A stretch of DNA of 10,329 nt from Chitinophagales bacterium (GTDB lineage: Bacteria > Bacteroidota > Bacteroidia > Chitinophagales > UBA2359), in contig JAHDDN010000175.1 in assembly GCA_020629335.1 (NCBI GenBank), forward strand, positions 1-10,329. The letters run 5' to 3'. Positions within the stretch are counted from its first letter, which is position 1; the number at the start of each line of letters is the position of its first letter. The notes below the pieces were generated by a model. The model was given only the letters and a program-made list of their open reading frames with translations, ran no database searches and had not been told where the DNA came from. Both the position numbers and the translations under genes were made by a program. Of the stretch, positions 2,192 through 9,498 are shown in pieces.

Positions 2192-2216
2192 TAATACTAT
2201 TTACAGTATAGATATG

Positions 2217-2255
2217 AGGCCCTCTGAGATTAATCTCTCAGAGGGCCTTTTTTTT
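2217..2255 (+). terminator. Strong intrinsic terminator of the T9SS-protein gene
   Basis: A 13-bp perfect stem (2217-2229 with 2236-2248) has a 6-base loop and ends in a run of eight T (2248-2255). It lies 25 bases after the stop codon. There is no matching T run on the - strand, so it acts on + transcripts only. Confidence 0.93.
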
Positions 2256-2277
2256 ATGCAATCAATTTAATGCACAA

Positions 2278-2435
2278 GGGATAGAAGCGATATGTAGCGT
2301 AATGTTCAGTCTTGTGAAGCAAGGAGAGGCGCAGGCTGGCCCTGAAAGGGCAGACAAGGCTTCGACTATGCGAAACAGACTGAACATAGCTACATACAAG
2401 CGTATAGCCCGACCCGCCGCTTCTATAGCGGCGGG
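2278..2435 (+). ncRNA. Structured element A (first copy of the A/B family), probable RNA
   Basis: Nested helices are visible: GGG 2278-2280 with CCC 2408-2410; 2291-2298 with 2389-2396 (8 bp); 2302-2312 with 2377-2387 (11 bp, perfect); 2316-2320 with 2359-2363; and a GAA-loop hairpin 2339-2343/2347-2351. A separate 3' hairpin follows, 2413-2420 with 2428-2435. Element B at 7176-7380 shares the unpaired parts (AGGCGCAGGCTGGCCC, GGGCAGACAAG, AGCG on both sides, AGCCCGACCC) but has different stem sequences that still pair. On the + strand the conserved mismatches near the base are A-G/G-A oppositions, typical of structured RNA; on the - strand they would be C-U. The element is bracketed by two terminators and has no obvious promoter of its own. 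The Rfam family, if any, is unknown to me. Confidence 0.68.
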
Positions 2436-2450
2436 ATGTGCCCAAATAAG

Positions 2451-2489
2451 AAAGCCCCCTGAAAGCATATGACTTCCAGGGGGCTTTTT
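2451..2489. terminator. Intrinsic terminator downstream of atpC, possibly bidirectional
   Basis: An 11-bp GC-rich stem (2451-2461 with 2477-2487) has a 15-base loop. On the - strand it lies 23 bases after the atpC stop and is followed by ctttcttattt. On the + strand it ends in five T (2485-2489), so it could also stop transcripts that run through element A. Confidence 0.85.
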
Positions 2490-4389: not shown

Positions 4390-4532
4390 GCCTTATGGGT
4401 GATACTTTTGTAACAAATATCGTCCTAATAAGGATCAAGGAATACTAAAATAATAATTTTACGTTATCTATTGATAAAAATAGGACAATTCTGCCTTATA
4501 AAAGCACTCATTTTAGTGGTATAATGCTTAGT

Positions 4533-4688
4533 GGTTAAATTTATAAGTCCTTGACAGTCCAAGTTTTGTCTTTTTACGATTCTACTTCGTTATTTTTTCG
4601 TTCCGTAGCGCTGCTATGTGCTTCAAACATGCCTTGTATAATCGCAAAAATACTACATCTTAACTATCAGAAACTTATAAACTTAACC
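4533..4688 (-). ncRNA. Long stem-loop element C2 (C family), probable RNA or hairpin repeat
   Basis: Read on the - strand, arms 4688-4673 and 4548-4533 pair over 16 bp. A further helix pairs 4653-4640 with 4581-4568. The tip contains ACAAGGCATGTTTGAAG, a small hairpin around ATAGCAGCGCTA, and AAAAAATAACGAAGTA. The tip closely matches that of C1 at 7049-7104, while the stems differ. Imperfect stem positions are mainly G-U pairs on the - strand but A-C mismatches on the + strand, which points to a - strand transcript; one A-G mismatch remains at 4570/4651. It lies upstream of, and outside, the atpD promoter, so it is not in the atpD leader. A weak TAnnTTTG match (TAAATTTG, 4764-4757) lies about 70 bases upstream, without a good -33 element. 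Confidence 0.58.
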
Positions 4689-4689
4689 A

Positions 4690-5223
4690 TTAGTTTTCGT
4701 GCTTTTGGGTTTATTTATTTTGCTTGTTTTTTGTAATAGAAAGACTTTCAATAGTTCAAATTTAGTATTTTGCTGGTTGTTCAGCATTAAATTTTGACTC
4801 AGATAGGTAAATTAATATTTTGAAATTCCTTAGTTAATAAGAAAGTAATATTATAAATGTAAATAATACAGGAATTTAATTTATTTACGCCATTAATTAG
4901 AAGAAATTGCTTAACTTTGTCAATTGCCTCTTTTATGATAATTTCCAACCACCCCCAAACAAATATTAGAGGTATTTATTGCAAGACTTTTAGCTTTATT
5001 AATTTACTAAACTTTAGACCAACGTTATTATTTTATTGATTAAGAGAAAATAATTCTTCACTTTTACTTGGGGAAGTTATATCATGTTTAGAAGATAGAA
5101 GCTCAATAAATGAAAGAGGAATTGAATTTTCTTCATTAGGAGCTTATATTGATTGATAAAGTTAAGTGGGTTTCAATCGTATTTTGATTACTTTATTTAA
5201 GGATTAGTGTAGGGATAGTATAG
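4690..5223. other. AT-rich intergenic stretch without a recognised gene
   Basis: I find no credible coding region or RNA gene here. On the + strand TAACTTTG at 4912-4919 matches the -7 octamer but lacks a good -33 partner. The first ORF after it (4937-5041) would encode 34 residues with no recognisable features. In sequence this AT-rich, octamers of this form are expected about once per kilobase per strand by chance. The remaining part of the same gap, 4390-4532, holds only short dyads such as TTTGTAACAAA at 4407-4417, upstream of the atpD promoter. Confidence 0.5.
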
Positions 5224-6246: not shown

Positions 6247-6957
6247 TTAGTTTTTAGGATTTATCACATTATCAGCTATTGCCATAGCGATATAGATCAA
6301 AATAATTACGGATATGCTTGAGAATCCAAAGAGGCTTAGTAGAGCTAATGAAATAGCCATGAAGCTGAATCGGAGTTTATTATCATCCCAGGAGAAGTTT
6401 TTGAATTTGAAAGCGAATATTCTTAATTCAGCTACTAATAGGTATGAGAATATAGCTGTTATTCCTAATAGGACGAATTTATTGAATAGGATATCATGGT
6501 AAGGGAAATCGGGGTTTAGAGCTAGGAAGATAAGTGAGACAAAGAAAAGGGTAGAAGCTGGAGTTGGAACTCCGATGAAGTCATCACTTTGTCTTTCATC
6601 AACATTGAATATCGCTAATCTGAGAGCAGATAAAAGAGTAATTAAAAATCCTCCAGTCGCTAGATAGGAAAAGGTAGTACTATCATTAATTCCTTCGCTC
6701 ATTCTAATAAGTTGATACATGACAGTACCAGGTACTAATCCGAAACTAACCATATCGGCGAGGGAGTCTAATTCTTTTCCAATGTGGGAGGATACTTTGA
6801 GCATACGAGCTACAGCTCCGTCCCAGAAATCAAAAGCTGCTGCAGCAAATACTAGATATGGCACCCATTCGAGTTTATTTTGAAATGCAAATGTTACGGC
6901 TATACATCCCATTAGTAGGTTAGCGAGTGTGAATAAGTTAGGTATATGCTTTTTCAT
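6247..6957 (-). CDS. pssA: CDP-diacylglycerol-serine O-phosphatidyltransferase
   Basis: This membrane enzyme joins CDP-diacylglycerol and L-serine to form phosphatidylserine, the precursor of phosphatidylethanolamine. The 236-residue protein carries the complete CDP-alcohol phosphotransferase signature: D43, D46-G47, A50-R51, G60, D64, D68, with the standard eight-residue spacing between R51 and G60. The N-terminus KKHIPNLFTLANLLMG is typical of PssA, which distinguishes it from PgsA. Hydrophobic stretches near 8-26, 31-45, 88-112, 132-150, 162-182 and 208-230 suggest about six membrane segments. Downstream it converges on the SPOR-protein gene with no terminator visible. Upstream on the same strand, element C1 ends about 38 bases before the ATG and could lie in its leader. 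I see no clear TAnnTTTG promoter directly upstream; AACTTTTG (7016-7009) is a one-mismatch candidate inside C1. Confidence 0.95.
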   Translation of the reverse strand: MKKHIPNLFTLANLLMGCIAVTFAFQNKLEWVPYLVFAAAAFDFWDGAVARMLKVSSHIGKELDSLADMVSFGLVPGTVMYQLIRMSEGINDSTTFSYLATGGFLITLLSALRLAIFNVDERQSDDFIGVPTPASTLFFVSLIFLALNPDFPYHDILFNKFVLLGITAIFSYLLVAELRIFAFKFKNFSWDDNKLRFSFMAISLALLSLFGFSSISVIILIYIAMAIADNVINPKN

Positions 6958-6994: not shown

Positions 6995-7157
6995 TAAGTA
7001 GATAAACAAAAGTTTTCGAACAATATCGGATGGTTTATTTTGAGCTTATACTTCGTTATTTTTTTCAGCAATAGCTCGGCTATTCCTTCAAAAAATGCCT
7101 TGTCTAAGCTCAAAATAACCTCATCGGACTATGCGAAAACTTTTATTCACCTACTTA
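6995..7157 (-). ncRNA. Long stem-loop element C1 (C family) upstream of pssA
   Basis: On the - strand 7157-7134 pairs with 7018-6995 over 24 uninterrupted base pairs, including three G-U pairs. On the + strand those three would be mismatches, so the - strand is the likely RNA strand. After an asymmetric internal loop, 7118-7105 pairs with 7048-7035 (14 bp, perfect), with CATC/GATG just outside. The tip (7104-7049) reads ACAAGGCATTTTTTGAAG, hairpin AATAGC-CGA-GCTATT, then AAAAAAATAACGAAGTA. C2 has nearly the same tip on unrelated stems. C1 sits on the coding strand of both pepP and pssA, so it may be a pssA 5' leader structure, a pepP 3' structure, or a separate RNA. Confidence 0.65.
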
Positions 7158-7175
7158 TTAGGAACGGATGGCTTA

Positions 7176-7380
7176 GGGATGGTAGCGGTATGCAGCGTCT
7201 ATGTAATTGCTTAGGAAGCTTAGGTAGGCGCAGGCTGGCCCGAAGGGCAGACAAGCTTAGCTTAGCGAACTAGCAGTTACATAGCTGCATAATAGCGGAC
7301 AGCCCGACCCTTTCTAATTTTTCATTCGAGGGCGGATATATTAGGTATCGCATATAGGTTGAATGAAAAATTAGAAAGGG
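7176..7380 (+). ncRNA. Structured element B (second copy of the A/B family), probable RNA
   Basis: Helices mirror element A: GGG 7176-7178 with CCC 7303-7305; 7189-7196 with 7284-7291 (8 bp); 7200-7211 with 7272-7283 (12 bp with one U-G, on the + strand); hairpin GCCC-GAA-GGGC at 7238-7248; and a 3' hairpin 7308-7327/7361-7380. Stem changes relative to A keep pairing: TATGTAGC/GCTACATA in A is TATGCAGC/GCTGCATA here, and the basal A-U pair 2283/2405 is G-C here. The 3-base GT(A/C) bulge, AGCG sides and GCGAA in the 3' joining strand are kept. It lies 15 bases past the pepP stop but, by the pairing argument, reads in the opposite direction. No promoter is visible for it. Confidence 0.65.
7308..7380. 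repeat. 20-bp perfect inverted repeat just past the pepP stop
   Basis: Arms 7308-7327 and 7361-7380 are exact reverse complements, separated by 33 bases. In element A the equivalent position holds an 8-bp GC-rich hairpin, so this appears to be the lengthened 3' hairpin of element B. No T run follows on either strand, so it is not a standard intrinsic terminator, although it could protect the 3' end of pepP mRNA (inference). Confidence 0.85.
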
Positions 7381-7395
7381 GAAGCTCCTATTAAT

Positions 7396-8989: not shown

Positions 8990-9120
8990 CTTTTTCAGAA
9001 GCTATAATTGTCGATAAATGTGTTGTTGGCCCTGCTTAATTGAGTGTAAAGGGTTAGCATCATTTTGTTATAATTGTGGGTTTTGATAGAATAACAAGGA
9101 GTAATAAAAAGCATAAAAGA
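8990..9120 (+). promoter_or_regulatory. Long 5' leader of the rpsL-rpsG-fusA operon
   Basis: If transcription starts near 8990, the leader is about 130 bases, long for this compact operon. It contains a weak possible stem CCCT/AGGG (9031-9034 with 9048-9051) and AAGGAG at 9096-9101, which is 19 bases before the ATG and too far for normal Shine-Dalgarno use. Ribosomal-protein leaders often mediate feedback, but I recognise no known motif here. Confidence 0.4.
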
Positions 9121-9498
9121 ATGCCTACTTTACAACAATTAATTAGAAAAGGAAGAAAGAAGATCAAGGTTGCGAGTAAATCGAGAGCCTTAAATGCTTG
9201 TCCGCAAAAACGTGGAGTATGTACTAGAGTATATACAACTACGCCTAAAAAGCCTAATTCAGCATTGAGAAAGGTAGCTAAGGTGCGTTTAACGAATGGA
9301 GCAGAGATTATTGCTTACATTCCTGGGGAAGGTCATAATTTGCAGGAGCACTCTATAGTGCTTATTAGAGGAGGCAGGGTTAAAGATCTGCCGGGTGTTC
9401 GTTACCATATAGTAAGAGGAGCATTAGATACTGCGGGGGTTCAAGATCGTTTACAAAGTCGATCTAAGTATGGAGCAAAACGACCTAAAGGTCAATAG
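9121..9498 (+). CDS. rpsL: 30S ribosomal protein S12
   Basis: S12 lies at the decoding centre of the small subunit. The ATG at 9121 gives 125 residues starting [14 protein letters not shown], the family's standard N-terminus. An in-frame GTG at 9076 would add 15 unrelated residues and is rejected. Conserved parts include [20 protein letters not shown] (31-50), [14 protein letters not shown] (67-80) and [20 protein letters not shown] (84-103). K43 and K88, the positions where streptomycin-resistance changes are known, are both the wild-type lysine. D89 is the residue that RimO methylthiolates in E. coli. It is the first gene of the str operon, 28 bases before rpsG, transcribed from the promoter at 8953-8983. 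Confidence 0.98.

Follow-up and report, generated by a model that had tools for sequence, protein, structure and literature searches.

Two long intergenic hairpins on a Bacteroidota chromosome fragment, very probably an extended variant of the Flavo-1 class of dispersed elements

The window, by which we mean the whole stretch of DNA analysed, is part of a Bacteroidota chromosome and measures 10,329 bases. The best relatives of its aminopeptidase P share 69% identity with it, and one of these is named Chitinophagales; the cluster of this protein holds no other known contig. Besides aminopeptidase P, Pfam searches identified a T9SS-tailed protein, the epsilon-type and beta chains of ATP synthase (atpC, atpD) and a CDP-alcohol phosphatidyltransferase; further entries of the ORF list are presumably rpsL, rpsG and fusA. 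Two elements, A and B, are both intergenic. Element A is flanked by two convergent terminator-like stems, and a scan that does not cover Bacteroidota promoters found no sigma-70-type promoter around it. Element B lies between two minus-strand genes and is antisense to both. The window also carries a second, unlike repeat (4529-4692 and 6995-7157; cores 4572-4659 and 7038-7125), the two copies of which are 70% alike, lie inside long inverted repeats and have common strands CTTCGTTATTTTTT and ATGCCTTGT around a varying hairpin. Its copy at 6995-7157 immediately precedes element B, and the exact pattern of its shared strands was absent from 432 loci and from viral contigs.

An earlier sequence-only reading of this DNA had described A and B as one family, and the words, helices and loops that it quoted were located in both copies where it had placed them (Table 1). 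It had drawn the elements at 2278-2435 and 7176-7380; these stretches are present, but an outer closing helix, P0, had been missed. This helix appears when the fold includes more flank, so we place the elements at 2272-2443 (A) and 7170-7388 (B). The second long helix (11 bp in A, 12 bp in B), described as unrelated between the copies, is so in part: 5 of its 11 common pairs are exchanged, but 6 of 11 are identical. The two pairs above this helix are both exchanged between A and B. For the 3' hairpin, the 20 perfect bp given for B stand (22 in the fold), but A has 9 bp rather than 8. The label 'conserved loop, variable stem' is true of the tip but false for the whole element: A and B are 73% identical in paired columns and likewise 73% identical in the 56 other ungapped columns of alignment A2, some of which are stem put out of register by that alignment.

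Table 1. Coordinates of elements A and B and of the neighbouring terminator-like stems within the window
Feature	Positions	Strand	Evidence or remark
Element A, whole, outer helix to CCC	2272..2443	+	Fold; R2 hit 2272-2414, 21.7 bits, E 3.9e-4
A, P0 outer helix, 5' arm GCACA	2272..2276	+	Fold; partner UGUGC 2437-2441
A, P0 outer helix, 3' arm UGUGC	2437..2441	+	Fold
A, Flavo-1 basal module, 5' strand GGG-A-UA-GAA-GC-GA	2278..2290	+	RF01705 on this copy alone, 17.1 bits, E 0.26; R2
A, Flavo-1 basal module, 3' strand CA-AGCG-UA-UAGCCC-GACCC	2397..2415	+	RF01705, R2; exact 3' signature AGCGNANAGCCCGACCC
A, helix P2, 5' arm	2291..2298	+	Partner 2389-2396
A, helix P3, 5' arm	2302..2312	+	Partner 2377-2387
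A, tip domain AGGCGCAGGCUGGCCC-UGAAA-GGGCAGACAAG	2327..2358	+	Same words in B
A, 3' hairpin, 9 bp, GC-rich	2413..2435	+	Fold
Element B, whole	7170..7388	+	Fold; R2 hit 7168-7309, 33.6 bits, E 4.2e-7
B, P0 outer helix, 5' arm GGCUU	7170..7174	+	Partner AAGCU 7382-7386, one G-U
B, P0 outer helix, 3' arm AAGCU	7382..7386	+	Fold
B, Flavo-1 basal module, 5' strand	7176..7188	+	RF01705 on this copy alone, 24.4 bits, E 0.0033; R2
B, Flavo-1 basal module, 3' strand with AGCGGACAGCCCGACCC	7292..7310	+	RF01705, 3' signature, R2
B, helix P2, 5' arm	7189..7196	+	Partner 7284-7291
B, helix P3, 5' arm	7200..7211	+	Partner 7272-7283
B, tip domain AGGCGCAGGCUGGCCC-GAA-GGGCAGACAAG	7226..7255	+	Same words as in A
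B, 3' hairpin, 20 perfect bp, AT-rich, 33-nt loop	7308..7380	+	Fold
Terminator-like stem of upstream plus-strand gene	2216..2249	+	A lies just downstream
Terminator-like stem on the atp side, pointing towards A	2451..2487	-	

The results showed that A and B fold into one common long hairpin despite many differing stem letters. All 39 common pairs, which we set ourselves on alignment A2, are standard in both copies; 10 of them differ between the copies in both partners, 1 differs in a single partner and 28 are the same. Sliding the partners by 1-3 columns in the same alignment lowered pairing from 100% to 21-35%, and when 21 changes were placed randomly in the paired columns 200,000 times, none of the trials kept all 39 pairs (best, 35). 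Fold energies were -79.5 kcal/mol for A (z -8.0) and -93.0 kcal/mol for B (z -7.5), and each copy folded better than all 200 of its dinucleotide shuffles. With flank included, the plus strand folded more stably than the other strand in both A (-83.5 versus -71.4 kcal/mol) and B (-94.7 versus -69.6 kcal/mol). The proposal that these stems differ yet pair under selection on structure was thus borne out, with ten two-sided changes and no pair lost.

To place the copies among described families, we compared them with Rfam. Flavo-1 (RF01705) was the only family matching the basal arm of both, each copy searched alone, with scores (Table 1) that stay below the gathering cut-off of 42 bits in A and in B. 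Searched across the whole window, RF01705 listed only B (E 0.14), and of the 12 Rfam matches with E no higher than 10, not one reached its own gathering score. In the Rfam alignments of A and B (model positions 1-76), the A-G opposition, the GNA/GNA internal loop and then GC/GC are present. Further elements were gathered via signature and Rfam matches in other genomes and viral contigs, and a model, R2, was trained on 42 of 61 such references (sample A3; 19 were left out by hand, mostly longer or similar ones), all from elsewhere with the window excluded. R2 found both copies in the window (Table 1); its next match scored 4.4 bits (E 8). The link to Flavo-1, which the sequence-only reading had offered for comparison, is therefore supported by the RF01705 alignments, below cut-off as they are, and by R2 in both copies. 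These results indicate that A and B are, very probably, a new and long variant of the Flavo-1 class.

Across the class, elements ending in GACCC have the P0 helix closing the main arm together with the 3' hairpin, and their main arm runs through GGG-A-UN, a GNA/GNA internal loop and GC to one of several tips. In the basal arm of sample A3, 98.1% of cells were paired compared with 74.2% in shuffles, and 86 cells were changed on both sides compared with 26.6, figures in which seven of the ten basal pairs are biased because A3 elements were chosen to pair in 7 of 10. The three basal pairs not required in selection were 93.7% paired, with two-sided changes. Out of five measures on A3, three (cells paired, two-sided-change cells and covariation score) lay above all 500 shuffles. 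The number of pairs with two-sided change was 6 against 5.2 in shuffles, a value reached by 129 of 500, and further pair types (11 versus 11.2) showed no excess.

The P0 helix played no part in element selection. The loci contained 136 distinct matches to the 3' signature. The 5' signature was present as well in 87 of them, and these, together with A and B, gave 89 elements; the remaining 49, many of which look like chance, above all in viral contigs, were left out, and L121 (211 nt) was dropped as a false regex match. In 83 of the 89 elements, counted without correction for kinship, the reverse complement of the four outermost letters follows within 90 nt downstream, mostly as GCGT/ACGC. In 81 of these 83 the fifth pair is also standard, and it varies between G-C, T-A and A-T. 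The sets were GCGTG/CACGC (37), GCGTT/AACGC (32), GCGTA/TACGC (3) and others that were rarer, including whole exchanges such as GTGTG/CACAC and, in A, GCACA/TGTGC. Element A passes the exact 4-nt test and B fails it by one G-U pair (GGCUU/AAGCU). In 100 of 132 elements the plus strand folded better than the minus strand, which suggests that one of the two strands is the one that folds. In 98 contiguous stems we counted 1179 Watson-Crick, 22 G-T and 13 A-C pairs (G-T versus A-C, p = 0.18); contiguous stems were used because the counts of a cruder script (86 G-T versus 98 A-C), rejected for this purpose, had included the C-A opposition that is conserved in type-2 tips. Wobble is rarer here than we would expect for an old RNA.

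Three tip types recur on the main arm elsewhere, namely AT-rich ATCCTTTT...AAAAGAT, AAGCCC-RSA...GAGGACTT and GATACCGGCC...GGCCTG..CAGTATG. The A/B tip matches none of them by eye, and the second type was also compared through model R3 (AAGCCC-RSA...GAGGACUU; sample A5, 21 of 25 with the four longest dropped). R3 reached at best 4.3 bits in each of the inner A and B domains and, across the whole window, at best 11.5 and 8.5 bits, on the 5' basal strand only. A nested second type-2 core in the inner domain, attractive by eye with GAAGC/GCGAA repeating the basal loop, was given up, R3 being unsupportive. The exact tip pattern occurred in 37 stretches of genome contigs and in 6 of viral contigs; by eye, none of these 43 contexts had the fold or the basal module, and they were taken as chance for want of element structure. 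A loose tip search of all 432 loci found no true tip and one regex coincidence (L019). Model R1, made from A and B, gave 0, 1 and 0 matches over 4, 296 and 250 partly overlapping genomes, a near-absence that is weak evidence because searches above 40 genomes ran with stricter filters, which can miss elements, and scored part of the candidates. Its single match is a short-tip element in one genome (G115), which we read as upstream of ileS. Over 90 loci R1 had 27 matches at E up to 0.1, and the three alignments inspected consist of the basal module and a stem without the tip words. The search of Bacteroidota genomes with an A/B model, which the sequence-only reading had proposed, thus returned nothing but that short-tip element among 296 genomes, and a dispersed family defined by the tip domain is not supported, since this domain was found in no other genome searched. 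What A and B have in common with other genomes is therefore the outer frame and the Flavo-1 module at the base, and on present data the A/B tip is private to the lineage of the window.

Of 247 Bacteroidota genomes, 20 carry the exact 3' signature, at 64 sites in all as against 1 for the reversed control. Within one order, home of the window's closest sampled relatives by aminopeptidase P, the signature occurs in 99 of 400 genomes, with no control match among the matches listed. Both counts include some chance matches, since at least four of 30 loci printed from the 400-genome set (L404, L409, L412, L428) lack a proper 5' half and many 3'-only matches look chance-like. Of 148 genomes, 16 had RF01705 matches above the cut-off and 21 had matches reaching E 0.001, compared with 0 of 14 control genomes; copies per genome ranged from 1 to at least 29, with 29 candidates scored per genome. 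With R2, 18 to 32 copies each were found in four genomes chosen for having elements. In 80 stretches picked around known matches and with crudely called ORFs, R2 elements (n = 89) lay between ORFs in 79 cases, inside an ORF of at least 80 aa in 8 and at an edge in 2. Those with co-directional neighbours were more often antisense than sense (35 versus 15, p = 0.007), at median distances of 37-59 nt from these genes. Element B had no match in plasmid and phage records. Orientation relative to the replichore was not consistent (G061, p = 1.0; G107, p = 0.67; G202, p = 0.02), and insertion by replication strand was rejected with a bias in one of three genomes only. In the stretches from these three genomes, the two halves of the chromosome are told apart more clearly by GC skew at third codon positions (plus strand) than by plain GC skew. 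In another genome, contig 1 of G403 has three signature copies about 190-200 nt apart (2812748, 2812934 and 2813134).

Presence and absence were compared among three genomes, G146, G072 and G549, and thus on class members outside the window. At site 1 (contig 16 of G146), an element sits in a gap of 152 nt, right after a T-run, where G072 has 15 nt and G549 has 17 nt. At site 2, G146 has 185 nt versus 78 nt (G072) and 71 nt (G549), and the alignment to the relatives is not clean. A third element, in the same 11.9-kb G146 stretch, lies within sequence that aligns to both G072 and G549. Both sites show a copy difference between species that would fit insertion and deletion alike; no target duplication was defined, and the extra stretch in G146 is longer than the element core. 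At 14 congeneric loci of one dehydrogenase gene (gene ends taken as alignment ends, flanks of 1.5 kb), R2 matched in six and in none of the other eight; two of the six elements lie near the 3' end of the gene, antisense as in G146, and four lie elsewhere. Of the 16 genomes of the genus, at least 12 had matches to a single-element query, and among the matches listed most stop at the edges of the conserved core. One locus (L216, G146 contig 25) holds three identical element copies with some common flank, which may stem from segmental duplication. The same locus holds other dispersed repeats of 100-150 nt (855-972, 2594-2744, 4433-4549, 6564-6688, 7061-7169); repeats of this kind are met again in several congeneric genomes, with a spacing of 1-3 kb in places, and may be spacers of cassette-like arrays. 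These results show Flavo-1 behaving as a dispersed repeat, mostly intergenic, with presence/absence sites and with copy numbers that run from one into the tens in positive genomes.

Elements were also found on phage-like DNA and next to topoisomerase genes. One contig (L141) encodes an rve-domain transposase and an AAA/TniB-like protein and carries elements at 449-513, 6275-6361 and 9068-9132, two clear and one weak (21.4 bits, E 0.076); it resembles a transposable phage, which we take to be Mu-like. In four loci (L403, L429, L431, L432), a topoisomerase gene is followed, at a distance of about 35 nt, by an element with a long 3' hairpin (around 1430-1580). The four elements are closely similar, and conservation drops past their last letters. 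In L101, the other strand reads a topoisomerase C-terminus, then an ORF6N gene and then a related element. All five loci are presumably parts of putative conjugative elements. For Y1 (RAYT-type) transposases no link emerged in the 7 genomes searched: an element lay within about 1.5 kb at 1 of 16 Y1 loci, and one genome (G088) with 28 Flavo-1 matches had no Y1 match.

Taken together, we consider, at a probability of roughly 0.55, that the class is one of scattered hairpin repeats with copy differences between species, and that it is probably mobile and recognised in the form of a folded strand. It would spread as a REP/MITE-like mobile hairpin, with the purine-rich internal loops as contact sites of a putative trans-acting protein that would recognise the folded plus strand, either as single-stranded DNA or as a transcript. 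We propose that pairing is kept while stem letters drift because this protein would contact the loops of the folded strand. A and B would form a lineage-specific subfamily, and their extended tip may serve a lineage-specific form of the putative protein. A more far-reaching version, which we put forward tentatively and would not bet on at even odds, is that Flavo-1 elements are not RNA genes but phylum-wide mobile hairpins, a Bacteroidota counterpart of REP/RAYT without the RAYT, whose folded single strand would be recognised by a putative enzyme and whose exchangeable tips (the three recurrent types and that of A/B) would act as specificity modules.

The main rival, possible but rather doubtful in our view, is a structured non-coding RNA class, with copies transcribed alone or within mRNAs that fold to bind a protein or ligand and with the long A/B tips as specialised versions. 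Pairing kept by exchange in A and B and class-wide, P0 included, agrees with it, as does the better-folding plus strand in 100 of 132 elements and in A and B; this strand bias is expected for an RNA too. Weinberg et al. (PMC2864571) present Flavo-1 as a candidate RNA, marked 'y' as RNA and 'n' as cis-regulatory in their table. However, the F. psychrophilum transcriptome study (PMC9723704), which terms Flavo-1 widespread in Flavobacteriaceae, reports in its passage on the motif that matches occur in both sense and antisense orientation and that many of them lie beyond the transcribed regions, and it offers no real clue to what the motif does. A review (PMC9029176) lists Flavo-1, and no function is given for it in the portions of these three sources that deal with it. 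A search by titles and abstract openings, with subscription papers and supplements outside its scope, found no paper treating Flavo-1 as a repeat. Few G-U pairs and presence/absence between congeners also speak against an RNA class, as does the position of A between two convergent terminators with no sigma-70-type promoter found by that scan. The sequence-only reading had suspected a dispersed Bacteroidota RNA family; the family is dispersed, but its status as an RNA gene is unproven, because copies differ between congeners, A sits between convergent terminators and antisense placements outnumber sense ones (35 versus 15).

BIME/REP sites are bound by gyrase, IHF or a nucleoid protein, and a comparable chromosomal protein-binding site, as cruciform or double-stranded DNA near gene ends, is an unlikely account of Flavo-1. 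It would suit the mostly intergenic placement close to co-directional genes and the antisense excess, but the better folding of one strand in most elements and the inconsistent replichore pattern count against it. It is very improbable that A and B arose by local duplication within a single genome, pair by chance and have no relation to Flavo-1: the tip domain is indeed found in these two copies only, but ten two-sided changes lost no pair and the independent model R2 finds both copies, so that this account would survive only if the alignments of both were wrong. The fuller anatomy of Flavo-1, with its outer helix, 3' hairpin and interchangeable tips, together with the presence/absence sites and the missing Y1 link, turns an orphan motif into a testable one. 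Should the class prove mobile, those copies that are catalogued today as Bacteroidota sRNAs would have to be reinterpreted.

The reading as a mobile hairpin invites comparison with known systems. REP/REPIN elements, which are moved by RAYT (Y1) transposases, are likewise short intergenic hairpins with many copies and presence/absence differences, whereas Flavo-1 elements lack a Y1 link in the 7 genomes searched, have more elaborate internal loops and keep their pairing while stem letters change. MITEs resemble the class in being small, non-coding, dispersed and without a gene of their own, but Flavo-1 has neither the terminal inverted repeats of an identified transposon nor a defined target duplication. 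Integron attC sites are also folded sites with conserved structure and variable sequence; their boxes read AAC in 5' and GTT in 3', whereas the outer letters of Flavo-1 are mostly GCGTN...NACGC, in the opposite order, and do not fit AAC...GTT. Flavo-1 RF01705 itself shares with A and B three pairs, the A-G opposition, two pairs, the GNA/GNA loop, GC/GC and a second small loop, as well as occurrence in Bacteroidota with many copies in some genomes. A and B differ from it in having the GACCC 3' hairpin, which is common to many of the elements collected, and a tip of about 90 nt with conserved letters of its own.
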